DNA of 64,000 bases from Ischnura elegans (Eukaryota; Arthropoda; Insecta; Odonata; Coenagrionidae): NCBI RefSeq assembly GCF_921293095.1, contig NC_060252.1:45818881-45882880 (forward strand), given 5' to 3'. Shown here in pieces: positions 428-61,362 of the stretch. The notes under the pieces are model-generated. The model saw only the letters and a list, made by a program, of their open reading frames with translations. It made no database searches and was not told where the DNA came from. Positions within the stretch are counted from its first letter, which is position 1, and every line of letters begins with the position of its first letter. Made by a program: the position numbers and the translations under genes.

Positions 428-6221
<5,794 letters not shown>

Positions 6222-17224: not shown

Positions 17225-17231
17225 CCTCGCT

Positions 17232-17740
17232 ACTGAAACGAATCGAGCCGGTAAATAATACAAGGTCAAGACCTATCCCCACTTAGAACGTCAGATTAAA
17301 ATCAATGAGACAAGAATAACAACATAAAAATCCATTTAAGAAACTTATACAGGAAAGACTCGCTTTCGAAAATGGATAAATCACACCACGGATAGTAATT
17401 GAACTTAAGAGCAACGTTGGCCGGGCTGCCCAAGAGTCTGATCACAAGTGACAACAGCACGCTCTTCGTCTTATGATATAAAGACAGCTGTTTTTCCCAT
17501 AAATATAAACTTATTTTACCATGAAATGAATTAATTTTCCAACATACTCACTTTATTGCACCAAAAATGCACACCTATTTGACAAGAAGTTTCTCGATTC
17601 GAATATCCACAATCACATGCACGATCACTCACGCCGCAATCCCGCAATTACCAATACAGCGCCGTCGGTTGGCTGCGGTGATAAACATAAGCACGCAAGT
17701 TGTAACAAATGAATACCGACGATACCGAAACAGGCTCTCT
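17232..17740 (-). promoter_or_regulatory. Putative HIP 5' UTR intron and upstream non-coding exon
   Basis: An acceptor (TTTCAG) ends at 17233, 8 nt 5' of the HIP ATG, so a 5' UTR intron is likely. A matching donor GTGAGT (- strand) is present at 17551-17546, which would place a non-coding exon just above 17552, in a slightly CpG-richer stretch (17625-17700). The transcription start is not determinable from sequence. Confidence 0.3.
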
Positions 17741-38600: not shown

Positions 38601-41600
38601 GAGGGGATCCAGGATTTTTTTCTGGGGGAAGGGGCCACAAGGGTCTGATAGGCAAACGATCTTCTTATACTTGATATTAAAAACAAGATCCAACAATTAC
38701 TGCACGAAATATTCTCTGTATTTTAATATGAAAGTTATAAATATGAAATTAAATAATCGAGGCTCCGTAAAACACAAAACAAAACGAACGTAATAATAAT
38801 CGTATACAAAATTTTGTCTTTTTTTAAGCGTCCGGGGGGAGGACGTGCCCCCGTGACTCCCCACTCCAATAAATCAACCTATGCTGGGACTATAACCAAT
38901 TACTGTGGCTAGTTCCGGTATACTTAACAAGAGCGAACACCTCTGTGTTTAAAGTTCGGGCTTTGCTCTCCAGCTGAAGCGCTGTGCGCATTATTTGGAC
39001 TGCTTGTCGAATCATATGCTCAGCAGTTCATACCGCCTTGTCCGCAATAGTCCTAAAATTTCCACAGAAGAGAATAACGCCTCGGTATCTTAAATGGCTA
39101 AAGCACTCGACCGGAAATAAGGAGATCCGGGTTAGGGTGAGAAAACCCAGTCAAGGCGAATGATTTTTTCTTGGTGGAATCGAGGCCGTCTTTTGAAGAA
39201 ATCATACAACCCACAACGAACTCGGACGTTGTCACACTCTTCCTCCAGCTCATGATGAGATAAGGATAATTTTCAAGCCATGCATTTCTCTCAGGGGACG
39301 ATCTAGTACTACGTAATCACTCTTGGGGTAGGGTAGGTAACGAGTTTGCTTACTTTTGGGGCTTGGAAAATTCCAATTTATTATTGCTTACATGGGAGTA
39401 AGGGCCAAAAATGGCTTACAGTGTGCTTCTGTAATACTTCAATGTTCCTTTATGTGTGTTATAGTGCTTTGAGTTTGAGATTTAAGAAACGTACACAAAA
39501 TAAAAATGACTTGGTCGCTATGTAACAAGGCATTGCTCTAAACTTCATTACTCATTAACTCTTATTTCACAGACATATGGCACATCAGAGGCCTTAGTGG
39601 TAGCCTCTTCCAGATACGGTGGTAATCCTGAAATAAAGAATCCTGAATACGAGGGGATAGTGGCTGGAGTCAAATACATAACATTTGAGGGAGGTAAGCT
39701 AAAGAACATGGCTATATAGTTGTACATAAATTCTTAAATAAATCGTCTAATACCACATACAGGAGACGTGGATACTATGTACAGTAGACTCCCGATAATC
39801 CGGGCTAATGAGGGGAAGGGACGGCATGAATAATCGGAAAACACGGATAACCCAAACTGTCACTTAAATGTCTTGATATGTTCATAATTTACGTAAAACA
39901 AACAATATATTATTATTTATGCAGTTATTCTGTTATTTTAGAGTACTTCCCGGACTCAATGAGGCTTTCTTCACCAGTTCGCCATCTTTTTAGCGGCGGT
40001 AACATGGTTGTACTCGTATTATTAACGCTCCATGTAAGGCCTGGTTTCGCAAACCACACATCCGTGGCTGTGTGATCGCGGATACAGAAAAGTGGTTTGC
40101 ACGAATGCTTCAAAACCACTGCTCGACGTCAGAAACTACATTGTCAGGCACCACGCCACGCAGTCGCGTCTCGCATAGGTTGCCCGGGTTGCGACTGCTA
40201 CCGAACGTGTATCCGTGATCACGGAGCGCGGTCGCGCACGACGAGGCTTGGAAAAAACGAACACGGTGCTACCGTTAAAGCAGCTAGCGCGCGATCGCTT
40301 CCGTTTTACGAAGGGGATTCAGAATGAAATGATAAGTGCGGCGTATCCCAGCATTGATACAGTAATTCCAATGATTTTGCGTCCGATTTTATTTTTTCAT
40401 AAAATTCGCGGAAAAATTGAGCGAGAGTGAAAATCATGCACGGATAATCCGTAAACCGGATTAACCGCAGCCGAATATTCGGAGTCAGCTGTATATATTT
40501 TATAAAAGAAATACCTCATCGATTAAAGGACTCGTTCGCCAATTAATTTTAAATTTTCGATTGTGATGGACTTTGAAACATAAAGAGGGCCATTTTTTCC
40601 GTTTTCCGACTCGTCACCTACTTCACGAGATATTTACGAAGAAAAATCACCAGCTTTAAACCTTTCGAAGTTGGTGACGTCACAAATTCATACAGATCAT
40701 CTAGGCTACTCCAATGACTCGCACATGCGATGTAGAAAATACGATATGGCGGCTTGTTCCCCATCCAGGGGATATTTTTGAACTTTAAAGAGTTTGGTCA
40801 GTGCTACTCAAAGATCAAAAGACCACAGCTTTTTAGCTTGTTCAACTACATTTTCAAGTAAAGTATATTCTTCTTAGAGTATTTCACCACAACTGAAAAG
40901 ACGTTACTACACCATAAAATGATGGTGGAACTTTCGCGTTGTCTTATTTAGCTTACAATAATATGGCCGAATTTGAAAGATCTATTTTTTGCCATAACTT
41001 AACTTGCCCATGAGTTTACTGAATTATTTTTTTGAATTACGATTTCGGATCTGTCATTGTAAAGGCGAATACAAAAAAAGACGTAATCCTCTTGAAAAAT
41101 GGTATAGCAAGATAGAGATGCATAAAAAGAAAATCAAGGAGAATGCCAGCGCCAAAGCGCAGCAACGCAAAAAAATCATTCGGTTTTCTATTTATTTCGA
41201 GGTTATTTTAATTTTTTTAGACAAAACTAAATGATAATGACAAGTTATCGGAAATCGTCAAGAAAATCTGATAGACATTCAAATGATATCCATCAGGGTG
41301 AGCCTAATTATGCCTTTTCTATGGAATGAAATTTTCCCTGAAGCAATAAGTTAACAACTGAAATCAAGATCTCAGTTGCGTTACGTTTTCAAAATCGGGC
41401 AATAGTGAGCCACCAGAACAGTTCAGTTCAAATAAAATTTTGAAAAAAAACAGGTGGCAAACGAACACACTATACAATGGAAAAAGTCATTTGATTACAA
41501 AATTCAATTATTAAATGAAATACAAAATTTTTTGCTGCGGACGATTAGTCAAAAACTTTTGAGAGCTGAGAACCCGCATTGAAACGTAATAAAATTCATT

Positions 41601-44600
41601 CATTCGTAAAAAGGTTTTAAATCCGCAATTAACGTTTTCCCTTTTGGAGGTCCTATTGGCGAAAAATTTAAAATTCTTTCCAATACTATTTCTTTACAAA
41701 TTCCTAAATCATCATTAGGAAACTGAGCCACTGATTGTATCCTGAAAAAGCATAAAATTTAACGTGCTGTATATTAATGTGAAGGTGAAATAAATTATTT
41801 GAGTGTTGATAAGTCTACAGTAATAAATAAATATACCTACATATTATAATAATTAAAAATATATTATTATAATTATATATTAAATACTCCAAATATCGAA
41901 ATCTCACGGTCGTAATATGGTTGTAAGTATGCATAAGAAATTGAACCAAACATGTTTTATAATCCATATAATTTAGAACACATAAGCCTCTATCTCATCG
42001 GCTGATCGTGATTGATCAAATCGAATTTCTTATGTTTTAGACCCACACTTGAGCTGCGGGCCACTCTTCCCTGGAGCGATGGCAAAAGTAAGCATACACT
42101 GTTCGTCCACTCAAGTGCATAGTAACTACAACATTTCCCAAAAATTAATCAGCTCGTAATCAAGTAAGGAAAGAATTCTGATGTTACTGCGACAATAAAC
42201 AAATGGAATTGTCAGAACTAGAAGCTGCAATGTTACAAAAACTGAGACAAAATATTCACACACAGCTGTTTTCGTATGTGCGCCGTATAAAATAACATTT
42301 TAAATAGAATCCTCAATAAATGCATTTAAAGTACGAGCGATGCTGTCACAATAAAAAATACTGGTTATGCATAATTTGTAATATTTTTCAAAAGCAATTA
42401 AGCGATTTGCAGTCTTCGGGAAATGCTTATAAATAATGAAATATTAATAAATGAAATATTATACCAAGCGCTTACTGCCATGCATGGAAGAAACTACACT
42501 AAATGCGTCACAGTATCAATTCATTAAAATTACTTAGCCCATTAGAAATACAATTGCAAATTAATATGATATAATACAACTTTTTTCCAGATTGTGGACC
42601 CCACTTCGGGAATTTCATTGGGAAGAAATACCAAAGGAACGCTTCTAATCAAATCTACAATCTTAATGAAGGGTTACCTGCATGGAACCATTAAGGTATT
42701 AACATAAATTTAAAAAAATCTTATAAACTTTAAAACGACTCCACTGCATTTTCGCTTTGGCTTAAGAAAGACGTATCATTCAAATGGAATACGAGGCACT
42801 GTTAAATCTTAATGCTTTTATTATGGGATTAAATTTCATTCTTCAGCACACGTTCCAAACACAACCCCACATCTCAGCCCAATCTTATCATCAACATCGT
42901 CGGACTACAATCCGAATATTGGTTCCATTAAACCTCCTATCATCTATCCTTTTAATAACCATGTAGTGCTTCTATTTTATATTCTTCTCATATCTTATGT
43001 CTCTTACCTTTGGACTCCCTCTCTCTCACCTTCAATCCGTCCTTCAACGATGGCTCATCGTGACTCATGATGTGATCAATTATGCTGCTCCTTCGTTAAC
43101 CAAAAGACTTATCTCTTCTTTTTAAAATTTCCACATTACCCCCACGATCCATCCACTTAAGAGAGAGCCTTAGCCACATTTCGTAAACTTCCAACCTTAT
43201 TGTATCTGCTGCTATAATCGTTCATCACAGAATGTGATACAAATGAAAAACATTTCCTGTCACTCTTACTCTTTTGGCGAAAGGATCTAAACGATGATGT
43301 CATTCACGGCCAGGAACTACTTATGCATTCAGATATGAGCAAAAATTATACAATCGGACGGAATTATCCACCCACATTATCCTGAATACACGTCTGATTA
43401 TCTCCGCAGCCATCATTTCCACTACCAAATATTACAAGGCAGCATCGTCTCTCAGAAAGAAATCCTTCTCACTCCTGGGTTCAAGATTTATTTGCCAAGT
43501 AGTATCCTTACATTATTCTCTACACCGAACTCATGTTTGTCACACCTTCTGTAACTTCAATGCTTCCAAACCCGCATCAAGAACGCCAGAAGGATAGTCT
43601 CATTACCCTACATTAAGTTCCAGTAAACATTCCTCAAACCACGAAATAAGTGTTCGTAGCATCTAATACGAATTTTCATTTCAACAATTAGAAGTGACCA
43701 CTTTTATAGTAGATTCAAAGAATTCATAGATTCATAGAATAGACATATAATCAAAATTTTATTAATTATCACACAATGGTTCTAATGATAGGTAAAAATA
43801 CCTTGATCCCAAGAGTGCACGTTAGCTAAATCTATTCATAATTTTAGAAAATGTGATTGGTATTTCTTGGCCTTAAAACAAATCAAACTGAATGTTGTTC
43901 AGAAAAATGGTAACAGAGCCATGAAGATTAAATTTCTGGAACTTATAAAACCAATGATAAAAGATATATTCACCATGCAACTTTTATTTCTAATTTCCAA
44001 ATAATTTCCTAGACAATAATTAATGTTCTGAATTTTTTAAAAGCAAAACGGAAGATTGAATTATTTTGAGCAAATGCAAATGTTCAACGTGGCAATGAGG
44101 CCTAGGTGAGGGATTGGCATTCTTTGGATTATCTCAAAGGCTATAGTAAACTGGGCCCGAGATAAACTTCATAATTTCTACAAATAAAAAGTGTTCGTCA
44201 TAATGGGCTGGTTCAATTTTCTTCCATTGTCGATCGCGCTCAAAAAATAAGGAGACGTGAATTTTTGATGACGCCATAAACTCATGAAAAGTGGACGAAA
44301 AAATTTACGTTTTCTTATCTAAAACCTACGAAATAACGGCTGAAAGGGGAAGATATACGTCAAGTTTAATTATCTATCCCTTCTACAACCGAATGCTTAT
44401 AAATGCGATTTCGGGTCTTTGCGAACGACACCATTTTTAAGCGTCAACATGTCTTTTGCTCTTCACTTGCAGGAGTTGACAACTGGATTGAACGACGACG
44501 GGTGGTATGACACAGGAGATGAGGGTTTTTTTGACGAAGACGGCTGTCTGTATATCATGGGCCGGAACAAATTCACATTCAAGCATTGCGCGCACTGGGT

Positions 44601-46670
44601 AAGTTCATAATCACATTCTACTGAACGGCTTTCCACTCGTTTATAACTCCATCACGAATTTACCCCAGAAATTTCATAGTGATATGATAATGGTAGTAGT
44701 TGATAGGAAAATTCTCGAGGAAATAACAATAACAACGATAATGAAACGCTTTCTTGGGATAGGATTAAGACAAGGCAGTTCCATATTTCATCGAACCCTA
44801 AGCCGCTGCTCCAATACTAAATATTTACAGAGATTTGCATCTTCAAATAAAAGTATGCATGAATAGTATTAAATAGCCTACAATAGCTTAAAATCGAATA
44901 CATAGCTATTGATGTCGTCCAATGAGCTTTAGCAAATTGTACTGCCTATAACACACCGAGAGGCCAGAGGGGAAAAAGAGGTTAGTTGTGAGAAAAAAGT
45001 GGCGGCAATTTTTTTTTCTGTCAGGAGTAGAGCATGAGTTGACTTAGAAAGGGAAATACTGTTAAATAACTAGCTGACAAATAGTAAGAGATGAATACAG
45101 ACAGATGCTTAAGTGATTAAATGGATAAAGGCACATATAAGAGTATATGAGTATTACAAAGACAAAGTTAGACATCGAATAGCGAGCATTGGCGAATTCC
45201 GGGATAGAATTACGGGAGTACGAGAAAGAAAAAAGGGGCATACTCTTTCTTCATCAATCTATAAATTCATCAATCAATAAAAAATAAAATCTATCTTCAT
45301 ACATCTATAAATTGCAAACGATTGAATTAGTCCACAGCCACAGCATTGTAACTACAATATAAAACATAATGCCTTTGTATAGTAAAAATGGTATCTCACA
45401 CCACAATGCAATTTAAATCAGCATCGGATTTCCACAGGTTTCACCAACGAACGTGGAAACGGTCATTATGAGCCATCCCGCAGTTGAGTCAGCCGTCGTT
45501 GTCGGCGTGCCTAACCCTGAAACGACAGCAGACGCCAAGGCGTACGTTATCCTCAAGCCCGGATGTACAGCCACTGCAGAGGAAATCGAAGCTTACGTCG
45601 CAGGTAAAAACTCAATCGTGGAATCAATGAAAATATAACTTTCTTAATGGTACATATTTTTATGCATTTTTAAAAATTTATTGAAGTCAAATGACAGGAA
45701 ATAGAATTTTTTTAGGTTTTTCAATAAAGAAATATAAATTTCTCCGAGGTAAGGTAAAGTGACAAAAAATATCAATATTTTAACATGGAACCAGCTTGGT
45801 TACAAAAAATATACAAATATTGATTATTTTGTATCCATAACTGATGTGTCAATAAAAAAAAAATGTTGTCTAATAGCTGTGTTAATTCTACAACATTTTT
45901 TTATTTTAATAAAATTTGGAATATGTACGGTATTGTTTTAGCGTGTTGTTTCTTTGAATTTTTTGGATAATTTTTTTGGTTTGGGTAATCTTTTCTGAGA
46001 AAGTTTTGGAAAAAAATTCCATTTTTATAGATATGTATGTATGGATTAAAATAATCATGTTTTCCAGGCAAATTCCGCGTATATTTTACTTTTGCGGACG
46101 ACGCGTCGCGACGGTTTCGGGCGCATTCCACCTCCCGAGAGACCCGATGAAGGAAGCTGGAAAACACCCGATACCGTCGTCCGGCAAAATGAATCAACGC
46201 GGTCTTAACCTGGAAAAAATCTATCCATTTAATCACCTGGGATGCCTCTGTAATGTAATCCGCATTAAAAACTTAAAAATTTCGCAAGATCTTTTTCCAA
46301 ACATACTAAGGTTGCTAACTATTTTAAGATTGCTGATTTTTTTCCCAACTCATCGGCTTTTATTAAAGTGTGTTATTTTCACGTCGATTATCTAAAAACG
46401 AGATAAGACCAATAATTTTATAACTCGATGGCTTCAAGTAGTGCAAGAAGATACTTCGTGTAAAAACGCTTAATAAAACGAAACGACTCTAGAAAAGTAG
46501 GCTTCAAAGTAATTCAATATTATCTTGTATTCACAGGAAAGGCTGAGGAACACAAGCATCTTCACGGCGGTGTGGCATTTGTGGACAAGTTTCCCTTTTC
46601 TTCTGGAGGAAAAATTGACAGACCCGCCCTCCTTAAACGAGCCATTGAAGAATCAACCCATGCCGCATAA
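29642..46670 (+). CDS. AMP-binding acyl-CoA synthetase / luciferase-like protein, copy A
   Basis: Thirteen exons, all in phase: 29642-29660, 31176-31336, 33609-33816, 33893-34075, 35655-35808, 37465-37615, 37702-37872, 39573-39693, 42041-42087, 42591-42695, 44473-44598, 45438-45603, 46537-46670 (TAA). Total 1746 nt, 581 aa. The family activates carboxylates as acyl-adenylates, then usually forms CoA thioesters; the substrate cannot be read here. Visible motifs: P-loop-like TSGSTGVPKG (210-219), TYGTSEA (350-356), GWYDTGD (450-456) and C-terminal GGKID with catalytic Lys563. Oddities: no recognisable A4 His motif in exon 6 (LRNTYSSIFFTACTYL); the usual xDRxKELIKYKG is IMGRNKFTFKHCAHW (468-482). 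No PTS1 (ends HAA), so probably cytosolic. Start chosen because the 19-bp exon MNENRK+1 nt mirrors copy B. Intron 3 is 76 bp with donor GCAAGT. Confidence 0.9.
31381..31503. repeat. GAGAC/TCTCG-rich repeat fragment
   Basis: Dense ACGAGACGAGACT, GAGACGAGACC and CTCTCGAGAGTC motifs in intron 2 of copy A, related to the arms of the foldback element at 34127-35056. It lies just after the exon, so an ORF read through the donor at 31337 into it is artefactual. Confidence 0.6.
32352..32526. repeat. Inverted pair of tRNA-derived SINE heads
   Basis: Left arm TGACCGGGATTCAAACCCGG (- strand box B) and right arm CCGGGTCGAATCCCGGTCA (+ strand box B) face each other. The homology extends outward through GAATGAT and TCTCAAGAATTT to both sides, about 55-60 bp per arm. 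The + unit also has box A-like TTTAGCTTAAATGGATAAACC. In intron 2 of synthetase copy A. Confidence 0.7.
33817..33892 (+). other. GC-AG intron in synthetase copy A
   Basis: The exon ends ...GATGAAAGGG and the intron opens GCAAGT and closes TTTTCAG. Using 33816 as the boundary gives a 208-nt exon, identical in length to the paralogous exon 50828-51035 whose donor is GTAAGC, and keeps the frame into ELYLRRMRE. The intron is only 76 bp. Confidence 0.85.
34127..35056. mobile_element. hAT-like foldback element with arms of 160-190 bp
   Basis: The left arm (34127-34312) and right arm (about 34895-35056) are reverse complements with scattered differences. The ends read TAGTGCTGCGCGAGAGTC and, on the other strand, TAGGGCTGTGCGAGACTC. 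Shared interior blocks include GACGAGAATTTCATTTCTCG and GAGAAGTCTCGCCCCTTCGA. The middle (about 580 bp) is AT-rich and non-coding. The YARNG-type termini and 8-bp flanks GTACTCAA / GTCCCGAA (5 of 8 equal) hint at a hAT origin. It lies in intron 4 of synthetase copy A. Confidence 0.75.
38252..38415 (-). repeat. tRNA-derived SINE, - strand
   Basis: The + strand shows GACTAGCCACGGTGATAACT, then AATCATTCGCCTTGACCGGG with ATTCGAACACGG, i.e. a box B on the - strand followed by a non-tRNA body. Nearly the same order occurs at 54713-54850. In intron 7 of synthetase copy A. Confidence 0.65.
38590..38860. repeat. Degraded dispersed repeat between the two SINE copies
   Basis: Starts near GGAGGGGATCCAGGATTTTT and TCTGGGGGAAGGGGCC and ends near GTCCGGGGGGAGGACGTG. 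This G-rich edge style recurs around 23590 and 24010-24090, suggesting a common repeat. No coding capacity is seen. Confidence 0.3.
39085..39180 (+). repeat. tRNA-derived SINE head, + strand
   Basis: TCTTAAATGGCTAAAGCACT (box A-like) and CTCGACCGGAAATAAGGAG, then GATCCGGGTTAGG with an altered box B, then CAGTCAAGGCGAATGATTTT. Opposite orientation to the copy at 38252-38415. Confidence 0.6.
39782..40491. mobile_element. Non-autonomous Tigger-like MITE with TA duplications
   Basis: The left end CAGTAGACTCCCGATAATCC and the right end (other strand) CAGCTGACTCCGAATATTCG are flanked by TA on both sides (39780-39781, 40492-40493). Subterminal blocks ACGGATAA and GGATAATCCG repeat at both sides. 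710 bp, no transposase. In intron 8 of synthetase copy A. Confidence 0.8.
42990..43140 (-). repeat. Possible LINE C-terminal remnant
   Basis: The - strand reads RRSSIIDHIMSHDEPSLKDG, which resembles the RR..IGHILRHD segment near the C-terminus of RTE-like LINEs. The surroundings in intron 10 of copy A (42700-43600) are pyrimidine-rich on the + strand. Stops and shifts abound, so this is tentative. Confidence 0.3.
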
Positions 46671-46840
46671 AAAGACTACCAGAGCGATGACTCAAGGTGT
46701 TACAGGAGAACTCAGTGAATATTAACTGCTAGGAGTATAAGCCATGTTTTAGCAAATGAAGTATTTCTACATGGCTTCATATCCCTGAAGTAGGGATGTT
46801 TTGTTTAAAAATACGCACATGCACCGAGAGACACAAGAAA

Positions 46841-46846
46841 AATAAA
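46841..46846 (+). terminator. Poly(A) signal of synthetase copy A
   Basis: AATAAA 171 nt after the TAA stop. Confidence 0.6.
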
Positions 46847-47842
46847 ATGAAGCATCGCCATTCTCAAATTTTATTCAGTTTCCTGCCGTAAAAAAACATG
46901 AATGGATAATTTTGATTTTTGTGAAAACCCGCTAAATAAAAAGTTGTTTTACCAACAGTAATATTTACATTTCAATTCCTTAACCGGGTATTTGGAAATA
47001 GAGAGAATATAAATGACTGATAAAATATAAAAATTTACGTATTTGACCTCGCTATAGTCCAAGTCAGGAGATGGTATCTCCTATATTCAAACTTGAATGG
47101 ACAAAAGAATACTATCTCTCAGAGAAAATGTTTCCTCATTTCCTAATTAAAACAGGACTGGCTCTTTCTGTACAAGTAGGACGCTTTATTTACACCGAGA
47201 GCCTCCACATTAGGACTGTGTGATGGCCTGAATACTCTAAGGCCTCGTCAAATTACTAAAACCTTCGCGATCCATGTTTGTCAATATTAATGGCTCATGG
47301 GGGTAATCCGTTTCAAGATTTTAAGTAGCCAAATTTCGGGAGTATAACAATTAAAATGCGGCGCATGCGACCACATTAATCAGGTAAAACAGCATAAGCA
47401 CAATAAGAACTAGAGTCAAGGAATAGAGCGTGGCGATTCGATTATGTCACGCCGATAAATCAGTTGTCGCCGACCAGGCCGCACAAGGCCGCACCATCGG
47501 AATAAACAATCCGAAAATTCTCGCCTTTTCCAACATGTGTCGAGAAGATCTTTCCACTGCTTGTCAAAAATATGTTACTTGTTTATATGAACTTCTTTAC
47601 ATAATTAATTATATGTATAAATGCAAGACGGTCGTAAATGATATTAATAAATGTAAATCTGAGGAAAACATTTCAAAATGAGAATCTTCCGGGAGGCCTT
47701 GGAATTAAACCACAGAAGCAACTAGAATAGAGACAACGAAATTTACGAAAATTAGAAAAGTAGCGAATCTTGCCTTCCAGTTATTTCTAGATAGAAAGAT
47801 GCCCAGAATTTTCTACCACCACCCACCACCTATAAATTGATG

Positions 47843-47958
47843 TGGCATTTTTTAGAGTCCCCCCAAAATTTCTGGTACCCCCCCATGGGATTCGTCCGAA
47901 TTCCTCCGAACTTCCTCCGAACTTATCCGCAGAACTTATCGCGAAAGGTCCTAAGAAA
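47843..47958. repeat. Direct repeat, unit 1
   Basis: GTGGCATTTTTTAGAGT, then CCCCCCAAAATTTCTGGTAC, then CCTCCGAACTTATCCGCAGA and CGCGAAAGGTCC. The same order recurs about 395 bp downstream. Confidence 0.8.
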
Positions 47959-48237
47959 AGTGAGAAAGTAAATTGAACTTCTGGAGGTGGATTTATTGCC
48001 TAGTAAGAGCTGCGCAATTCATGTAGAATTAAACATTTCTCATATCCCGTACACACATTTCCCCTTAATGATGTAGAAATAAAAATACTGCGGGAGATGG
48101 GATAATTGTTAAAATTTCTCTACCACTGGCACTGCAGAAAATACTGAGGACTTAAAAAGACGAAAGTAGCGCCGCTTAATCCGTTCCAATACTAATTCGA
48201 CTGAACCTAACCACCTACTAGGGCAAAGTCGAGGCAC

Positions 48238-48333
48238 TGTGGCATTTTTTAGTGTACCCCCCAAAAATTTCTGGTACCCCTCCCCAGAAATTCCTCCGAA
48301 CTTATCCGCAGAACATAGCGCGAAAAGTCCTTT
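48238..48333. repeat. Direct repeat, unit 2
   Basis: GTGGCATTTTTTAGTGT, CCCCCCAAAAATTTCTGGTA, CCTCCGAACTTATCCGCAGA and GCGCGAAAAGTCC. Shorter than unit 1, which carries an internally duplicated CCGAACTTCCT stretch. Confidence 0.8.
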
Positions 48334-49054
48334 CCGACTCAAAGGCTCTAAGTCTCGGAACTCTTGTTTCCGAACTCTGACCACTGGGACCACTGAGCGC
48401 CGCCGCGATTAGGAGCCCGCAGAGGCCTCCAGGGTGAGGATAATGATGGAAGGGAGGGGATAGGGAAAACTCCACGCCGCCATTGGAGCAGCGGGGCCCA
48501 CTCCTACCGAAACCATGATTTGCTGTTTCTACAGAAAGAAAAGAAGAAGAGAAACCCTAAGAGGGAGAGAAACCCTACGATTTCCCGCAGATATATCAAA
48601 CACAAGAATTTTCATGTATTGAAGCATTGATTATGATTTCATCTTGAAAGGACATGCCCCAACCATAGATTTCTTTACCGCACACTTATCGTTCGATACG
48701 TTGAACGGCAAGGTTAAGATTGCACTTGGTTCATTAAGACAAAGAGAAATTTCATTCAAAATGGAGTGCTATTTCTTTAAAATGATATAAAGGCAAACTC
48801 TCCGTGTGATAACGGTACCTAAAATATTTAAGTTGTAGCAGGTAAGATAGCGTGGAAATATATCGAAATGTAAGTCAAACAGACGGAACCTCTCCACTAA
48901 GTATGACTGATTTACCACGCGTTTCGTCTTTTACGTTATTATGAACTACACTATCAATTGGCATTGTACTTGACGTAAAAACTGAATGAAGTAAAAAAAA
49001 CGAATGTTTGATTTACATAAAAGTATAGTTTTCGAACAATAAAGAAACCTTATT

Positions 49055-49140
49055 AGTCATCCCCATCCTGTCACCAGGATTCGAACCGGAATGTTCGGGT
49101 TTGCTAGTCAATACCACGATCACCGTGGCAACAAGATCCC
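49055..49140 (-). repeat. tRNA-like SINE head, - strand
   Basis: The - strand has CCGGTTCGAATCCTGGTGAC, a perfect box B, preceded by GTATTGACTAGCAAACCCG. No full cloverleaf is evident. It lies about 0.75 kb upstream of synthetase copy B. Confidence 0.45.
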
Positions 49141-49891
49141 CTTGAGGTTTAGCTTCAATCTCGTACGGAGAGACGACGGCGAACAAAAATATGGCGATAT
49201 TTTGACACGTTCTGAAGATTTTTTCCGTCTTCAACGAGGGAACAATTGCACTTGGTAAGAAGAGAGAACTCGCGCGATTCGTCAAGGTTTCGTAAGAGAT
49301 ACCGATCAGGTACGATAAACACTGTAGCGGAGCAAACACACGGAAAAATGATAAGATGAAATAGCAGCGGGGAAATTTTTGTCGACGAAATTCCATTGAA
49401 ATAGAAGCCGGTTCAACAACAGGTCTCATACAGACACACTTGTTTCCAGCCGGGCAATTTCTTAGTTCCCACCGCTACGGTTTGTAAGTAAGAATTTGAT
49501 CGCACTTCATGTGAACACGGAAAAGTAATTAAACGCAAGAATATATCCCATTAATTTCATTAGCAGTCGGGAAAAGTGAAGAAGTAAATTAAATCAGCCT
49601 ATTAATTAATTTGCGCAATAAGTCAAATTTCCCGCCAAAATTGAAGTCAGGGTAAATGAATTCTTTTCTCACACCATAAACGATATTTTTCGGATTCTGA
49701 AGAGTAGAAAAAACCATCGTAAAGATTTGGTGCACAATATTTCAAAATACAGTGGAAATTACAATTTTTGGTTAAATTTGTTTTATATTCTAGCTTCTAG
49801 AGTTACAGTCAAGCGATCAGGTAAACACGATCCTAATACATTGCCGTAAAACGACAGTCAGCCAGAGAGATTTGGAGACTTTAGAGAAGAA

Positions 49892-52800
49892 ATGGACAAA
49901 AACGGTTATGGTAAGTAGGACATGTATTTAAGTGTTTTGATCGAAACAGGTATTTCCATGTAACCGCCAGACTTTCAACGCATCCATGGAAGCCTTGCAT
50001 GTATACGCCCTGCGGGAATAGGCTGGTTGTCAACGCTAACCCAAAATCAAAATTCATCAAAAGATTTCGGCAGATGGGAGTGAAAGGTACTTTGAAAAGA
50101 AAAATTCTTCCCCAGTCAGCCATTCTCACGTAAGTTTAAAATAAAACGTGAAAGATGCCACCCAATTTTCAAGAGTCGGTGACGTCATGAGAGTTTCGAC
50201 TCCGTAACTCGTGGAGAGAGAATCGTACTCTAAGGGTACGTACGAAAGGATTGCTAACAAGAGAGTAAACATCAAAGATCCATGCAAGGCGGAGTAGTAC
50301 CTTAGACGCGGTAATAATCGGTTCGGCACGAGTCTCTGATGTCATCAATTTATTTCCGAAAGGTTGTCGATTTTTCTCCGCGGAAGTAGGCGACGGATGG
50401 GAAAACAATGAAATACGTGTTTACTTTTTCAAGCTCAAACACAACCAGAAATAGAAGGAAATGCGTGAACGATTCCCTTGTCGAAAGTTCCAGAAGAAAT
50501 TGAACTAGATATTCGGGTAAATTAATGCTTACTGCTTATTTCAGGGCCACTGCAGCACATTAATTCAGCGTGTGAAAAAGACGTAAATGTCGTGACATCA
50601 CCTTTAGCAGAAAAAGCCATGAAAGTCGTTATTCCAGAACTTTCTGTCACTGAAGTACTTTTTCAAGCTATAGACATGAACTACGACGTCATAAAAAATA
50701 GGAACTGGGTGGTGAGTGTTGAAATAACCACTATTTTACCCAACTGATTTGAGCAGTATTGGTGTTTTTCCATGCCTGGTACTTTGGAACTTTAGTAACA
50801 TATTTTTCTCTTTGTTGCATACAAAAGATTGACACCAACACTGGAATATCCTACAAATTTAGAGACATCAAACCAGTGACCAGAAAGATAGCTAGCGCAT
50901 TGACTAGATTGGGATTCAAGCAAGGTGACGTCCTGTTTTACGTTGCCTACGATGCGGCACTGATATACCTGGTGAACATTGGTGTCTGGTTATGCGGCGG
51001 GGCCATCAGAGGATGTTACCAAAAGGACCGTCAAGGTAAGCGTTTAAGATGAAGCACGATATTCGGTCAAGCGCATTGCAAGCTATCGTCAAATTAAATA
51101 AAAAACGCTGTCTTGCCAGCGAGAGCCGCCCGGAACAGGTAGCCAAAAGTGGCAAAATAAACTGTACTAATACGATATGCACTATCGATGCCGTGAAGCA
51201 ATGAAGTGCGTCGAACCGTATCAGTTATATAAATATACAGTATATACAGTTGTGTAAAAGTGTATTTTGTGCATTTTAAATACTTGACACGGCTGAAAGT
51301 CATTAAGTTTTATAACTGCTATAATATGTAATCTTTTCAGAGATGTATACGATTCGAATGAGAGAGGTGTCCGCTCGATTCGTTCTATGTGACCTTGAAA
51401 CAGCAGCCGTAGTCAAATCAGCTGCTGATCAGCTGGAATGGGATGTTACTTTTCTTTCGATTGGCGGAGAAGTGGAAGGAGTATTGTCAATCGAAGAACT
51501 CATTAAGAATGAAGATTGCTCAGGTGCGTGAATCAATTAAAGAATACAAGGCTTAATTTAGCATGTTTAAATTAAATCATTAAATCAACAACTAAGTTTA
51601 TGATAATGAGTATTCAAATAAATAGTATTTTATTAAGTAAAATTATGTAAAATATGGTTAGTTAGCATAAAAAACGAGGTTAAGTATGAAAACTTCCAAT
51701 TAAGAAACCGATTTCACTTGCTTCTAATTTTTAACGATAAGAAACAATAATAATAACCAATTGACTAATCTATTTAACTAATTTATTTTCATCCAAACAA
51801 GGCCAAAGCCCAACGGTGAGAGCTTCAATGTTACGTTAGGTTTAAGTTAAAAAAAGTTTGATTTCCCTACAAACATATCCCCATACACGGTGATGCTGTT
51901 TTATTTATAGCGGTAACATAATTGTATTTTCGTAAAAGTAAGATCTTTCCCCTCTCATCGAACCGTGCTAACGCGATTCTTTTCAACAGCTAATTAAACA
52001 ATTAGCAAGCAATTAAATTCAAGTGACAGTCGAAAAGCATAAAGAATGAGACTAAATTTTAAAGCTAGGGTCAACCAATGTCCTTAGATTCCAGGGAATG
52101 TTCGGTAATTAATTGTATCAAAATGAAAGTTGATCAGAGAAAAATATATATACTATTTATTAATTAACATTTTGGTATATTACATTAAATGAATGCATCT
52201 GAAACGCTATGCTTGGAAATCGCAAGGAATAAATGTATAATTAATGATTTAGGTAATTTAACAAGTGTTTCAACGCAGAAACCTTAGGAGATTTTTTGAC
52301 AATTCATCAACTTTTAATCTTTTCAGTGTTCCCGGAGGAAGTAAAAGTTAATAGTAAAGAAGATACTTTGATCATTCTTAACACCAGCGGCAGCACTGGA
52401 AGTCCTAAGGGTGTAATCCACACACATTATAACACTGTGGCCTACTTCCTTAACAAAGGAATGCTGAAGAAGTTGGAAAGGTGAAGATTTTGTCACATAA
52501 TGAAATACACGAAATGAATTGCAACATTGCACTGATAAGCACAATAGGCAACCCAGAAAAAATTGACCCTAAAGTGCGTAAATTCCTCTGAGGAAGAATC
52601 ATTTTTCGGGATCGGGACCGCAATCGTTAAATATCCAGAATTAGCACTGAAGCACATTACTGTGTACTTGCGGGTGACTCCAATGACGTACACAGCTGGC
52701 AAGTCCGCATTTGTATCTTTGAACATAATAGACCCTTTCTTTCATACCAGTTATTAATGATAGAAATGTACGCATGATTCGTGCCCCAGTTAATGGCGAG

Positions 52801-55800
52801 GATTACAATTGTCATTAAGCCGGCTCATCCGTACTCCATCCCATAGCGAACTTCATCCTTTGTTGTTTAATCTTGCACCCGTGTGCGTGACTATTTGCAA
52901 AGTCACTTGTTTCATGCACTACTTTAAGAACGTCCGCTTTTCACACGGTGCCCAAAGCTGCCTTGACCGTAACTGTCCGTAATCCGCACATTACCCGAAA
53001 CCCAACTTTCCTGACCGCGAGCGTCCAAACTTCGCATATTGCTGCTATGACAGCGGCAATAGGTTGTTTATTGGATCTTAAGTAGGTATATAGTTATGTA
53101 TGTCTGGCACTTACGTTCAGAATACATATTGATTACAAAAAGTTTTTATCAAGTTAAAAGGTCGATGTATATATATTAGACGTAACCGACCAAGCCAAAA
53201 ACCAATTGCACGAGCTCCTGATCGTTGATTAAGCCTATATAATGAGGATCCTATGTAGTCCGCAGCTACTGTTCATTTGCGAAATACAAACTTACGGATT
53301 GGTGGACCTTTTTTCGAAATTTTTGACATTCATAAAATATTCGGATTCAACCCCAAAAGTTGACCCACGAAGGAATTCAGTAATTTGCAAAAAGTTCTCA
53401 GAAAAATGAGAGAGTGGTTCGATGGTTGGAAGGTTCTTTGCCGAAAAAATACAGAAAATATAAATAAATGCAATATGTGACCAGGTACGAAATCTGAATA
53501 ATTTTTTGTTCCTTAGTAGCTCGGAGAGTCTCAGTTTACTTTTTTTTATCACATATTCGCTCTTTTTATGATATAAATTTCCTATCACCAGCATTTAACT
53601 AAGAAACTGTGCAAATCTTGTGCAATGCATCGGGACCCGAGTTCAGGTAGTGATTAAGATTTTTAACTCTTTCCCTTTAAATAAAACGCACTCTATTGGG
53701 GTTAATTATGCGAGATTTCTCCAGAATGAGATAATAAACCAAGAGAATTTACTTGCAACTAATTTTATAACTATCTGGATTAGAAATTGACTACCTTATG
53801 AAACCCAGGTGGTCAATTAATCAGAAACTAGTAAATGCCGCATAATAGGGTAGTTTCCTTCATCAAAGAAAACGAAAGGCATTGATTGCGATACGTTACC
53901 CACCATTAGTGCATTCATAATACACAAATTATTTGGTTTTTGAATTTGAAAAAGGCCAGATTGGCGCCCATGCAATTTCACTCCACGTGACGTCACAGGG
54001 ACCTAGTTTCTACACGAGAGGATAGGAGTTATACATCGTCTGAGGTTACCAATGCATGCATGAGGCACAGTGCTCAGGGAAACATGTCTTAATAATCACC
54101 TATTAAAACTGGCTAAGGTCGGAAAGTTTTCTTCGTTTGATAAGGTATTGATAAACCTTTTTTAGCCCAGCGCTACCAGCCAGCAAGGTACTCAGCTACC
54201 CGCTAGCATCCTGCGTCCTATCAGCGCTCAGAGCCTCGATCAAGGTCACCTCACAAGGCGGGAGGGGGAACCAGAAATGCGTCGCACGGACTTTTTCCCA
54301 TCATTCCTACTTACGCGTCGCGTATTCGCGCGCTTGAAATTTTTCACTTTTCATTTAATCGCGAAAAATAGATATCGTCATTTAAAAATCTAAAAGCGTG
54401 AAATACGTACTCCAGGAGTAATAATCTTTCGATTTAGGCAATAAAAAGATAATAGGAAACCACCCTATTACCAGTCAACAACTTCGCTTTAAACGGGAAA
54501 GATAATAATCAAGCCGCAAAGAAAATATAGACACAATGAAACAATCGCTCAGCTTTAACGATTAAAATCTCACTCCATCGATTAACTCATTACGACTAAA
54601 GGGCTATCGAAATAGATATATTAATTTATAGCAAAAAAAATACCCACTATTTTTTAAATTTGACAATTCGATTTCTCATACTTACAGCGATATTGCGCGG
54701 TTTAATTATGCCGGGACTAGCCACGGTGATAACTTTACGGAGTCACCCGCAACGCACAAATTATGTGAAAAACCAACAGAGAAATAATCATTCGCCTTGA
54801 CCGGAATTCGAATCCAGGATTTCCGGTCGAGTGCTTTGGCTAATTACCTAACCAGTTATCCAAACGCTTTTGTAACTTAATTGCCTAAGGAACGCGACCA
54901 GATTCCGGGATTTTGGGGGATCCGGTTCAAATCCCGGTCAAGCGGATGATTTTTCTCTGTGGAATTTTCGTACAACATTGCGTGGAATTGGATCATATTT
55001 ACTAAGTAAGAGAAAATAAATCCATACGTCATGAGCAGATGGTTTCACGTTTAATACAACACAAATCAACATCACGGTTTTGTGATTATATTCCTATGCT
55101 ACTTTAAACCTCCACCCCAGCAATGATTTTTGACCACATTAAATTTCGTTTGTGATTCAGTGCTACCAGTCCATCGTGGATGGCAACATTTGGAAATTAT
55201 TTCTCCAGCTTAATATACATGTCCTTGGGCTGCATTTTTCAAGGGGCTTCGTTACACAACGTATCAAAGTTTGAAATAAAATTGTTCGTGGAGAGCCTCC
55301 TCAAACATAAGGTTAGCGTGCAGATATACTTTGAATGCTTTTTATTCTCTTCAATTTGTTCACAAGACATGACATTTTAATTTTTTTGCAGCCCCAAATC
55401 GTTCTTCTTTATCCATACGCACTGCACACATTTCTTCAATCCGCGGAGATTGATGAGAATGATTTCTCATTCATAAAGAGTATCAGCTTATTGGGATCAG
55501 CACTTTATTACTCCACAGCGAAGACGTTGGAAGACAAATTACCCCACGTAAAACTGGCAACGGTAAATTACGATCCATACTGGGTGATGAGAGTTAATTC
55601 CCCTGTATCCAGCCCGCCAAATTTGATGATAAATATTAATTGTTGCTCATCAAATATTGCTAACATAATTAAAATATATTATGCAGCCTATTGATAACCT
55701 CCACGGTATTCTTTGCTACTAGTTATAAGCTAGGGTATTGGTAATGAATGCACTGAATTTGTCTTTTATGAGAAAAAAATCTCTTTTTATTAAAAAAAAT

Positions 55801-58800
55801 GACTGATATCTTATCAGCCAACTAAGAACATATTTTGTTCATGCGCACTAACTGGGAGCTCCATTTCACAGTCCTATGGCGTAACAGAAGCCCTTTCTGT
55901 GGCCACAACTAAGTTCACCCCGCCGCCAGTAATAAGAGACGCAGAAAACGAAGGCATAGTGGCCGGAATAAAATACAAGAAATATCAAGGAGGTAAGACA
56001 TCCAAAAGCTCATAAATAATTAATTCAAAATCAAAAGAGGCTAGAGAGTTAAAATTAATTATTTGTTTTTTACTATAAATTACAGAACTTCATTTAACTA
56101 GCGGAATCCTGGCCCCAAGGGAGAAAGCTAAAGTATGTACGACAGTTGATTTAGCGTTAGAATAGTTCAGAAACTCGATTTAAACACTGTTAAAAAACTT
56201 ATTCTCGTTAAGTTTGAATATAAATCTCTTATAAATAAAAATCAATACACGAGAGTAATCTCGTATACCATGACCATTATGAAATTTTATGCCTTTGGAG
56301 AAACGATTAAATATAAGCTAAAAATCACAAACGCCTCTGCATTGATTTAATACAAAGCCGAGGTAAGTAGTAAACCTGAAACAACAATGCAATCGAAAAA
56401 TATTTAATTTGACACTTACAGAACATTTTGTTACAATTAGTTATGAACTTCCACGCGATTTTATTTTCATTATCAAAGGAGAGTGATGTTATCTGTACTT
56501 AGGTAAATATCAGCTCGAGACAAATCTACCTTTACAGCGATCTGCTACTGCCATCTTCATGAAAATACTTCATATAACCCATTCACTTTCTGAGCGAGAG
56601 ACTGGTAGTCGGGACGTTTTACTTTGTAAAACTGCGCGACATTTTTCGTATTTCTATAAAAAGTTTTTTCTTCAGATTTTGCGAATCATTGCAGAACTTT
56701 GCGGCATGGGTTATTTACGACATGTTTGCTCAAAAAAGCAATAAACGTCATAAATTTATTCATCACCTTAAAATAAATTTAATTAACTATATAAAACGAA
56801 AAATAATGACAGATATACATTACATTTTGTGCCACAAATTTGTAAAAAATATATCAAATTATCTACTAGTATTAGGTGCATATATTTGCTAAGGTTTTCC
56901 CAGCAATTTAAAACGCAAAAACAAGGTACAACGAGAATAAAAATCATGAATAATCGCAGCAATAAACTTCATTAATGATATAGTTTGATATTATTTAATT
57001 ACTTCCATTACAGATAGTGGATCCATCGACAGGTCTCTCCTTGGGTAGAAACGAGAAAGGAGAGCTTTTAATAAAGAGCTCATGCTTCATGAAAGGCTAC
57101 TTAAGAGGAAATAAAGAGGTAAAGGTATTTAAGTGGGCAATGCATGCAGAGCAGCTATTCTCATGCATAATATGTCAGGCATGATCTTGTGGAATGAATG
57201 AGTACTGATCGACTATCATTGATGCAATTAAAGCATGAATTCTATAGAAACTGTAATACATGATGGTTTCATTGAGGACTGATGTCTCGCTGTCACTTTA
57301 AGGCGTGCACAGCGTGATGCTCGGTGGAAACCGGCAATTTGACCTTTAATAGCTGCTTAGTCGCATGACTAAGAGATAATTCATGAATGCTGATTTTGCT
57401 AAAAAGACACATTATCACCATTCAATGTGTACTACTGCACCTGCGTGCCGTTTATGAAAAAGTCAAGTTTGAAAGGAAGGAAGGAAAATGGCATTATTAA
57501 ATGAAGGTTGAAGAATTGATCTTTAATAGCTGCTTAGTCACATGACTAAGAGATTATTCATGAATGCTGATGTTGCTAAAAAGATACATTATCACCATGC
57601 AATGTCTTCTACTGCACCTGCATGCCGTTTATGAATAAGTCAAGTTTGAAAGGAAGGAAGGAAAATGGCATTATTAAAAGAAGGTTGAAGAATGTTTACT
57701 AAATTACAGGGTTAACATGTAAGAATTAAGCGGTTTAGAACATGGTTTAAATGAAAACAGAATTACTCACAGTTAATAATTTCTTTTTATTTTTCGAGTT
57801 TGTCATCTTACACGGATTCTTACACAAATAATAAATTTCAATATGTGTGCCCACTTCATCTTAAGTCTCTTCTCTCACTGTTTAAATCCGATTACTTATT
57901 ATTATAGATGATTTCACTCACGCCTAACAGATCCAGTTGCATAAACATTTACCACAGTCAGAGTAAACTTACCTTCCATGAGTCGCTTAAACTTCGGCAA
58001 TAATTTGGCCGCTACACACCTGAGTCATTGTGCACTCTACAATATTGAGTTAACAATTTATGCCTTACACAGTTTAAGTGTTTATTATTTCATTAAAGAT
58101 GAGGATGTATTACGATAATAATACATCACTATTTTTAATAAACATACTCTCTGGACCACCTAATCGTATTTGTTATTTTATTCCATTCAATTCTAAAAAT
58201 TAAATGATAGCAATGCTTATAAAAAATCATTGTCCCACGTGTTAGTATAAATGAGAATCAATGAACTCTGAATCGAGAGTCGGGAATCGATTTGAAATAA
58301 TCGGATTTGGAATCCATAAAAAGGGGAATTGACTCATCCCTAAATAAAATGTGATTAATTATTATCGCTCTCCATATTGGCTTCTATTTCATCATTTATC
58401 CATTTTTTCCTTACAAAACGGTCGCAACTTCTATTTCACCCTTTGAACACAATACCACTCGGCGGCCTAGACGGATGTCTCAACTGGCATTGACGAAAAT
58501 GGATGGTTTGCCACGGGAGACTTGGCATTTTTCGATGAAGACGGCTGGCTCTATGTCGTAGGCAGAAGCAGATTCACCTTCAAGTATAATGAGCGCTGGG
58601 TAAGTCTATCTGAGAGGTACAAGTATTAAAAAGAGGCATTCTTGATTACCGCTTCGTTTACCAGAGCAACACGAGAAAAATGTTTCACTGTCATGTCATA
58701 AGCTGGATGATAAAAGGATAGATGCCTCCGTGCTAGAGTCTCTCCTCACGCTACGTGTAAAGTTATGGTACATTTATTATTGCATAGCTAAATGTATATG

Positions 58801-60379
58801 ATACTCACTACAATGCGGTGCGATTCCATTTTAATTGATAAAACTGAAAAATAGAAGTCTCATTCAATATATTATAATACCTTTCTGCAAAAGTTATGAA
58901 TTAAAACGCACAATATAAATGAATGGATGCTTGGTCAAATTCTTTAATATCCATGCGGGTTATTGATATTCCTCAGGTTTCTCCGAGTGATATAGAAGCC
59001 ATAATTTTGAGTCATCCAGCAGTAGTATCAGCAGTGGTTGTTGGTGTACCTAATCTCCAAACAACGTCTTCTGCGAAAGCATTTGTTGTTCTCAAGCCTG
59101 GATCAGAAGTGACCGAAGAAGAGATAAAAATGCACGTTGCAGGTAGGCAGAGACAAAACTTTTTTTTATTAAATAATATTTCCGCACCAGGAAAAAATGA
59201 AAACAGAGAAACACAAATATGCTGATTAAATTGTGCTCGAGAATGACGTTGCAATTGCAAAATAAGATCAAGAAGTTTTAAAGGTAAGTAGATTATTGTC
59301 AGTTCACGATGCGATATGATACAATATATCGATTATACCGCATAATTATGCCAACGCTCATTTCGCCAGACATGATTTTTCATTTAGATTTTGCTCGTTT
59401 TTGAGGTATTTTATTTATCTTTTATTTGGTTTTAAGTAAAAAATCGGATATTTTCGTATAACTTCATTTTATGCTAGTGCTATTCCAGAAAAATTTTTAT
59501 TCCCAAAATGAAGACATCCTAAAATAAATACTCCACTGAAAATTATCCGATTCTTCATTTTTGCACGGACAGCAATCACCTCAAACTGCGTACAGTGCCA
59601 TGCCTATTCTTGTTAAGTAATTACTGCATATTGATTGCAGAATTATTGAGTATGTTGACATTTCATACCACCCTGAGAGTATATTTGTGAATTTAGTACA
59701 TTCGCATTTATGGCAACTGTACTTCAAACACCTGCGTGAACGATTTATAAAATGAAAAAATAGAATGAATTTTCACCAATTCGGGGCTTTCGAGATGAAA
59801 TGTCGACGGTTTTTGTTCCCCACTGAACTATAAACAATGAAATGTTGATACCGCCTGCCCAAGTGAAGAAAAAAATGCACATCTGACCGTCTTTTGTCTG
59901 GAATTGCGCAAATTTGATTTTTTCTCAGCGCATAAATTTTGGATGAGGTTGCAACTTGTAGGATAAATCAATTCGATCCAATAGTACAGTTTTTGCACCC
60001 AACAATGCACTACACTGAAAATAGAAATTTGCGATTTCAAAATGTATGGGATTGGGAGATGTCATTGGTAGTCTGGCTTCAGCTGCTCCCGTGCGCGTTG
60101 GATAGCAACCAGCATTCCATCGCTTTGAGTTCCGGGTTATTTCGATGCCTCCTCTAGCGTTGATACAGGCGTTGTGTAACCGAGGCGTAAAAAGCACTGA
60201 ATACGAAAATTTACAAAGCAAGACCATTCTAAACGACATTTTTTTCACTCACAGGGCAAACAGAAATCCACAAGCATCTTCATGGGGGAGTCGAATTCTT
60301 GGACAGCATGCCAAAAACTCCCTCAGGGAAACTAGATAGATCTGCTCTCCAGAAACGAGCCAAGAAGATTGGTAACTAA
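49892..60379 (+). CDS. AMP-binding acyl-CoA synthetase / luciferase-like protein, copy B
   Basis: Thirteen exons: 49892-49910, 50545-50711, 50828-51035, 51341-51523, 52327-52480, 55161-55311, 55392-55562, 55872-55992, 56086-56132, 57014-57118, 58471-58599, 58977-59142, 60255-60379 (TAA). Total 1746 nt, 581 aa; all junctions are GT-AG and keep frame. Ten exon lengths equal copy A; exons 2, 11 and 13 differ by +6, +3 and -9 nt. Motifs: TSGSTGSPKG (212-221), SYGVTEA (352-358), GWFATGD (453-459), PSGKLDR with catalytic Lys566. The A8 region is VVGRSRFTFKYNERW (471-485), lacking the usual hinge Asp and KG; exon 6 (PSWMATFGNYFSSL) lacks the usual A4 His motif. Ends KKIGN, no PTS1. Exon 4 is identical to copy A at 43 of 61 residues by hand count. 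Same orientation, about 3.2 kb downstream of A: a tandem duplicate. Confidence 0.9.
53844..54469 (+). mobile_element. MITE family copy 3 (about 626 bp)
   Basis: Ends AATAGGGTAGTTTCC and GGAAACCACCCTATT. Collinear with copy 2 but lacks about 45 bp after the CACAAATTATTTGGTTTT block. In intron 5 of synthetase copy B, + orientation. Confidence 0.85.
54713..54965. repeat. Inverted pair of tRNA-derived SINEs
   Basis: The left unit is on the - strand: GACTAGCCACGGTGATAACT tail, then TTCGCCTTGACCGGAATTCG, box B. The right unit is on the + strand: GATCCGGTTCAAATCCCGG, then TCAAGCGGATGATTTTTCTC. Same head-to-head layout as 32352-32526. In intron 5 of copy B. Confidence 0.7.
57341..57694. repeat. Tandem duplication, period 177 bp, two units
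   Basis: Unit 1 at 57341-57517 and unit 2 at 57518-57694 match over nearly their whole length, e.g. CTTTAATAGCTGCTTAGTC, CATGACTAAGAGAT and AAGTCAAGTTTGAAAGGAAG in both. Each contains a GACTAAG/CTTAGTC inverted pair. In intron 10 of synthetase copy B. Confidence 0.95.
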
Positions 60380-60701: not shown

Positions 60702-61362
60702 AATAGGGTGGTTTCCTATTATTTTTTTATTGCCTGAATCGAAAGATTATTGCTTATATTAAGATTATTATAGGTTTTTAAATGACGATATCTATTTTTC
60801 GCGATTAAATGAAAAGTGAAAAATTTCAAGCGCGCGAAAACGCGACGCGTAAGTAGGAATGATGGGAAAAAGTCCTTGCGACGCATTTCTGGTTCCCCCT
60901 CCCACCTTGTGAGGTGACCTTGATCGAGGCTCTGAGCGCTGATAGGACGCAGGATGCTAGCGGGTAGCTGAGTACCTTGCTGGCTGGTAGCGCTTGGCTT
61001 AAAAAAGGTTTATTAATACCTTATCAAACGAAGAAAACTTTCCGACCTTGGCCAGTTTTAATAGGTGATTATTAAGACATGTTTCCCTGAGCTCTGTGCC
61101 TCATGCATACATTGGTAACCTCAGACGATGCATAACTCCTATCCTCTCGTGTAGAAACTAGGTCCCTGTGACGTCACTTGGAGTGGAATTGCATGGGCGC
61201 CAATCTGGCCTTTTTCAAATGAGGATAAAATTTGACCCTTGCCATTCGTCTAAACCGGTATTTCAAAAACCAAATAATTTGTGTATTATGAATGCAATAA
61301 TGGTGGGTAACGAATCGCAATCAATGCCTTTAGTTTTCTTTGATGAAGGAAACTACCCTATT
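60702..61362 (-). mobile_element. MITE family copy 4 (inverted, about 661 bp)
   Basis: Starts AATAGGGTGGTTTCC and ends GGAAACTACCCTATT. Reverse complement of copies 2 and 3 over its whole length, including the block missing in copy 3. Confidence 0.85.

Follow-up and report, generated by a model that had tools for sequence, protein, structure and literature searches.

A divergent A8 loop across an expanded clade of luciferase/4CL-like adenylating enzymes in Ischnura elegans

We analyzed a 64,000-nucleotide stretch of the Ischnura elegans genome (NC_060252.1, positions 45,818,881 to 45,882,880; hereafter the window) that carries two neighboring genes, A (31181–46670) and B (50545–60379), arranged head-to-tail on the + strand. 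Both encode AMP-binding enzymes of the ANL superfamily, whose members perform two half-reactions in one active site. Both have lost the Lys-Gly pair of motif A8, and exon searches of the same genome found at least 17 genes with a divergent A8. A clade-wide difference in the loop on the coenzyme A (CoA) side of otherwise intact-looking adenylating enzymes is real. On balance, we lean towards reading A and B as intact members of an expanded clade, related to luciferase and 4-coumarate:CoA ligase (4CL), in which the wall of the CoA tunnel would be remodeled and CoA transfer changed in most members.

The spliced A8 region reads GRNKFTFKHCAHW-VSPTNVE in A and GRSRFTFKYNERW-VSPSDIE in B. Exon 10 (44473–44598 in A, 58471–58599 in B) encodes motif A7 (DTGD and ATGD, respectively) and then A8 up to the hyphen, and the exon 10/11 junction falls just after the A8 Trp in both genes. 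The interval that a preliminary description of the window gave for these loops, 44473 to 58599, opens on the first base of A exon 10 and closes on the final base of B exon 10. The A8 sequences in that description are real, each ending at an exon junction of an open 12-exon gene. With the residue before the Arg numbered as position 1, alignment of luciferase and 4CL structures gives a canonical A8 of D R L K (E/S) L I K Y K G (F/Y) Q V A P, and both regions align without gaps to the luciferase/4CL pattern DRLK(S/E)LIKYKG(Y/F)QVAPAELE. Positions 1–16 are G R N K F T F K H C A H W V S P in A and G R S R F T F K Y N E R W V S P in B. The loss of Lys10-Gly11 noted in the preliminary description stands, with Ala (A) or Glu (B) at position 11.

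The same description had held that Gly replaces the hinge Asp, and this we reject. Gly at position 1 (the GR form) occurs in 30 of 30 bacterial relatives, a non-random control consisting of the best matches to B exons 10–12, one locus per genome and several near-identical, from the 161 genomes with a match among 198 of one phylum; two loci were left out of the 30 (L108, Gly on a second reading; L109, unreadable). The hinge of Cryptococcus neoformans acetyl-CoA synthetase (CnAcs) is likewise named as Gly541, Arg542 included (PMC8383264; here and below, papers are cited from excerpts). Position 4 is Lys in A and Arg in B. We take the hinge Asp/Lys (D517 in acetyl-CoA synthetase (Acs), D402 in 4-chlorobenzoate:CoA ligase (CBL)) to lie at this position, and the hinge of A and B looks normal.

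Besides A and B, the 17 genes comprise a third tandem copy, C, just right of the window (C7:45.884–45.897 Mb; C7 is the contig carrying A and B, and genes are named by contig and Mb), twelve more on C7, one on C11 (60.9 Mb) and one on C1 (95.6 Mb); coming from exon searches, the count is a lower bound. In copy C, whose A8 is DRNKFTFKTYMHW, exons 1–7 and 9–12 were seen and exon 8 was not identified. Another last exon lies beyond C, at C7:45900883 (L099). A fragment at C7:84.26 Mb, for which only exons 11–12 were found, is kept outside the 17. Position 11 is Met in 10 of the 17 genes, Asp in two, and Ala, Glu, Asn, Val or Gly in one each. The Gly belongs to the C11:60.9 gene (L020, 60.88 Mb), the sister of A in the tree described below, which has an in-frame TGA in exon 11 and is possibly a pseudogene. 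Four canonical genes on C11 and C2 carry Gly (three) or Ala (one). The A8 Gly is found in 30 of 30 bacterial relatives and three of four canonical genes here, versus one of 17 divergent genes.

A maximum-likelihood tree was built on exons 10–12 of the 17 divergent and four canonical genes together with AncLamp, a red luciferase and 4CL; the C1:95.6 and C2:103.5 rows are without exon 12, and C1:95.6 is a long row. A branch supported at 100/100 separates all 17 divergent genes from the canonical four and the three Protein Data Bank (PDB) enzymes, and the same split is recovered at 100/100 after removal of 16 A8 columns. Inner branches are open in 9 of 21 and 11 of 21 cases in two trees, so relations inside the clade are loose. 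A scan of bacterial and archaeal genomes with the whole of B returned one weak locus. A literature search, conducted outside subscription papers, yielded no description of insect members without the A8 Gly or of such an expansion, and the excerpts of PMC10327219 and PMC10590383 contain nothing on either.

Six or more of the seven canonical rows agree at 51 columns, and 21 of these columns persist in 15 or more of the 17 divergent rows. The P-loop Lys, the GW..GD of A7 and the A8 Arg are present in 17/17, and the A10 GK in 16/16 genes in which it was seen. Within A8, position 7 is Phe in all 17 genes and position 8 is Lys in 15. The FTFK core that the preliminary description saw conserved in both copies is indeed there; across the clade the full FTFK occurs in only five genes (A, B, C, 66.05 and C11:60.9). 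Lys10 is kept in two genes, Gly11 in one and Gln13 in four. Position 12, Phe or Tyr in 6 of 7 canonical rows, is His in 11 of 17 divergent rows.

The GE.P loop of the C-terminal domain has changed as well: its G is kept in one of the 17 genes and its E and P in none, with T (15), S (10) and A (17) instead. Exon 11 (45438–45603 in A, 58977–59142 in B) encodes VSPTNVE and the loop PETTADAKAYV in A, and VSPSDIE and LQTTSSAKAFV in B, the canonical type being GELPAAFV. The E of this loop is not general among bacterial relatives: 12 of the 30 loci match a GE/GQ pattern and 18 do not, the G being visible in the rows. By eye, and with A4 read in A, B and C only, the luciferase A4 motif FHHGF corresponds to NTYSS (A, exon 5, 37465–37615), NYFSS (B, exon 5, 55161–55311) and NFFTS (C), another aromatic residue replacing the His. 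A5 was read only in A, B, C, 66.05 and C11:60.9 (exon 7 was found for four genes, and that of C by local comparison); the C11:60.9 A5, SYALSE, is without the Gly.

The consensus of the C-terminal peroxisomal targeting signal type 1 (PTS1) is of the SKL type. No such end occurs in the 16 divergent genes whose last exon was seen (that of C1:95.6 was not found), A ending in HAA and B in IGN; an SKL end is present in two of the four canonical genes. Peroxisomal acyl-CoA synthetases (PACS) are told from acyl-CoA synthetases (ACS) by a PTS1 (PMC6191289), and A and B carry none.

In characterized enzymes the A8 Gly is one of 27 residues conserved in at least 80% of 374 aligned sequences (index 648; PMC6122825). 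A and B, with Ala and Glu, depart from this; as the Gly is not universal, their ANL membership stands. In CBL this residue lines the phosphopantetheine tunnel, and the Gly409Leu substitution loses activity in thioesterification alone (PMC6122825). In MacsMa, Gly459 is proposed to open the tunnel; Gly459Ala has little effect, and changes at Tyr460 (A8 position 12) and other residues are very harmful to acyl-CoA synthesis (PMC10455477). We equate position 11 with MacsMa Gly459 because Lys461, two places further along, matches the Acs Arg according to PMC10455477. A (Ala, His at positions 11 and 12) and B (Glu, Arg) should not be treated as equal, because Ala is tolerated in a tested enzyme. We also take position 11 to be CBL Gly409, an equivalence that presumes the place of D402 given above. 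Trp444 of Thermus thermophilus long-chain acyl-CoA synthetase (LACS) bonds the AMP phosphate, and Arg501 of human medium-chain acyl-CoA synthetase (MACS) bonds the CoA 5'-phosphate (PMC6122825). Position 13 is Trp in A, B, C and 66.05, as in LACS Trp444, which argues for a working loop in these four. MACS Arg501 is presumably the residue just before the Gly of the GE.P loop.

These comparisons suggest how the enzymes may work. Clade-wide, the near-invariant Gly and the preceding Lys are lost from the A8 loop and the Phe-Lys core is retained. The enzymes would still make an acyl- or aryl-adenylate, and the C-terminal domain would swing on a normal hinge. Because the A8 Gly is lost clade-wide and CBL Gly409Leu loses only thioesterification, we infer that the wall of the pantetheine tunnel is remodeled. 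In most members (those with Met), and probably also in B (Glu), CoA transfer would then be slower, diverted or supplanted by another step; in A (Ala) it may be close to normal. The link to the CoA half-reaction drawn in the preliminary description fails by way of the hinge and is plausible by way of the lost Gly, more weakly for A than for B because Ala is tolerated in MacsMa Gly459Ala (PMC10455477). A may be an ordinary CoA ligase, and B and the Met members appear better candidates for a changed second step. From the loop sequences, we infer that the acceptor or the second step may have changed.

The exon models of A and B were obtained by comparing the two copies with each other. Gene A consists of 12 exons encoding 573 amino acids in a single open frame with one terminal stop. 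For gene B, 12 exons were found, open over 574 amino acids without a start codon, exon 1 as found here containing no ATG. Exons 1–3 lie at 31181–31336, 33609–33816 and 33893–34075 in A and at 50545–50711, 50828–51035 and 51341–51523 in B; exon 4 (35655–35808 and 52327–52480) encodes the P-loop, TSGSTGVPKG in A and TSGSTGSPKG in B. After exon 5 come exons 6 (37702–37872; 55392–55562), 7 (39573–39693; 55872–55992), 8 (42041–42087; 56086–56132) and 9 (42591–42695; 57014–57118). Exon 12 (46537–46670 in A; 60255–60376 plus stop, to 60379, in B) contains the A10 Lys, in SSGGKIDR (A) and TPSGKLDR (B), and the C-termini THAA and KIGN. Exons 2–9 and 11 have the same lengths in the two genes, and the introns are GT-AG save for a GC donor of A exon 2 at 33816 (GGG, then GCAAGT), where B uses GT. 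Exon 8 is a 47-bp micro-exon; the A–B pair scored 28, against 1 for the runner-up, among equal-length candidates of 8–20 codons in the introns of A and B. Gene finders easily miss such exons.

The AMP-binding and AMP-binding_C domains of Pfam score above cut-offs in both proteins, and these domains, the P-loop Lys, A7 GD, A8 Arg and A10 Lys place A and B in the ANL superfamily. The P-loop (TSGSTG.PKG), YG..E, TGD and A10 Lys reported earlier are all present; the numbers given for the C-terminal Lys, 563 and 566, become 555 in A and, counted from the incomplete start, 559 in B.

The divergent genes are under purifying selection. Over 570 codons, A and B share 55.6% identity, with nonsynonymous (dN) and synonymous (dS) rates of 0.332 and 2.41 by the NG86 method and a ratio of about 0.14, dS being near saturation. 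Over 154 codons (exons 4 and 10–12), the 33.83/33.86 pair gave dN 0.111 and dS 0.841 (0.113/0.706 by YN00), and the 84.14/84.18 pair 0.160 and 1.080 (0.160/1.252 by YN00). The closest pair, 84.18 and the fragment 84.26, gave 0.027/0.138, a ratio of 0.19, on exons 11–12 only and 13 base differences. Among the 154-codon pairs listed (25 of 120), dN/dS was 0.06–0.17 where dS was finite, NG86 being saturated or YN00 having failed for many of the 25; C1:95.6, whose last exon was not found, was omitted. Decay of A and B is rejected, and the earlier claim of selection borne out, by frames open over 12 exons and by low dN/dS (about 0.14 for A–B, 0.13–0.19 for three closer pairs). On position 11 alone, which varies, dN/dS is silent.

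Several points weigh against a remodeled CoA step. The 30 of 51 canonical columns that are not kept in at least 15 of 17 rows make the A8 loop one change among many; such changes would be expected over a long branch, and losses alone are no proof of a functional switch. Across the clade, position 11 may be M, A, E, N, D, V or G, which speaks against one fixed new function. Only A and B were assembled whole; the other 15 genes, C included, were read exon by exon, exons being joined into genes by order and place. The tree is consistent with a single origin of the clade, which is less than showing it. Two further points also favor the leading alternative: MacsMa Gly459Ala is nearly normal (PMC10455477) and A carries Ala, and the C11:76.2 gene (L041, 76.23 Mb), otherwise canonical and ending in SKL, has Ala at the A8 Gly (IKYKAFQV).

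That alternative, to which we give a real though minority chance, is that these are ordinary acyl-CoA synthetases in which Ala, Met or Glu is accommodated by neighboring changes, the substrates rather than the second step having diversified. The kept Phe-Lys core agrees with it, as does the general experience that large tandem expansions of ligases usually diversify acid substrates. However, the Gly is gone in 16 of 17 genes (Met in 10) and kept in all 30 bacterial relatives, the second C-domain loop has changed too, and CBL Gly409Leu loses the CoA step only (PMC6122825).

A bolder version of the remodeled-tunnel reading strikes us as rather doubtful. In an insect lineage, a peroxisomal-type acyl-CoA synthetase would have given rise to a large non-peroxisomal family of CoA-independent adenylate-forming enzymes, the tunnel being filled by a change of the A8 Gly to Met-His early in the clade, the neighboring C-domain loop altered and the acyl-adenylate passed to another acceptor. 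If true, this family would show in nature what the CBL Gly409Leu mutant shows in the laboratory, and would parallel the fatty acyl-AMP ligases (FAALs) by an independent route.

It is unlikely that the genes encode pseudoenzymes or binding proteins, in which the fold is retained and acid and ATP are bound but turnover is poor. Such a role would fit the replacement of the A4 His by Phe or Tyr in A, B and C (by eye), the varied P-loops of some members (TNGSTG, PKA) and the loss of the A8 Lys in two. We take the A4 residue of CnAcs to be Trp334. A non-His aromatic serves in CnAcs, however (Trp334; PMC8383264). The P-loop Lys and A10 Lys are present in every gene with the exon seen, and dN/dS is low.

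Residues 346–348, in what we take to be luciferase numbering, are LVV in A and LSV in B. Luciferase-like oxygenases using O2 on the adenylate are highly improbable: beetle luciferases and AncLamp are among the closest solved structures and the LVV of A is one residue off the luminous LVA, but the aligned luciferases retain IKYKG, and LVV and LSV match neither the luminous patterns nor the TLA listed in PMC10798137.

With its adenylation residues intact and the tunnel Gly mostly lost, the clade would supply homologs with Gly, Ala, Val, Met, Asp, Asn or Glu at one position, in which the evolution of acceptor choice could be measured. It also suggests that CoA thioester formation should not be assumed for insect genes labeled luciferase-like or 4CL-like.

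Some other features of the window were recorded. A 177-bp unit occurs in two tandem copies (57339–57693) in the intron between B exons 9 and 10. A near-identical translated stretch is found inverted at 54155–54393 (+), in a B intron, and at 60719–61020 (-), just downstream of B; it is probably a mobile element. Farther away, an open transposase frame of 550 codons with DDE_1, HTH_Tnp_Tc5 and CENP-B_N domains lies at 1862–3514 (-), and an exon at 16796–17272 (-) encodes an Hsp70-interacting protein N-terminal domain (HipN).

By sequence, the closest solved relatives of A and B in the PDB are luciferases, 4CL and CG6178. With the insect luciferase-like fatty acyl-CoA synthetases (Drosophila CG6178, PDB: 7kyd; beetle luciferases) they have in common the two Pfam domains, P-loop, A5, A7 and A10 Lys; they differ in having no A8 KG and no PTS1 end, in the replaced A4 His and in the changed GE.P loop, CG6178 itself not having been compared residue by residue. 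Among the 4CL structures (PDB: 3a9u, 5bsm), 3a9u is the second PDB match, nearly full length; the 4CL A8 is IKYKGFQVAPAEL, where A and B have FK(H/Y)..(A/E)(H/R)WVSP. The wasp acyl-activating protein Tb4CL4-like, likened here by its description, is a divergent insect member of the superfamily without one of six MEME motifs (PMC6891662). The likeness to FAALs is in idea only, and we claim no FAAL membership for A and B: FAALs keep adenylation with the canonical CoA pocket plugged, by bulky N-domain residues and a FAAL-specific helix (PMC8460268). T. thermophilus LACS (PDB: 1V25) has a Trp two places past the A8 Gly position, as do A, B, C and 66.05, and, unlike A and B, retains the A8 Gly itself (Gly442; PMC6122825).

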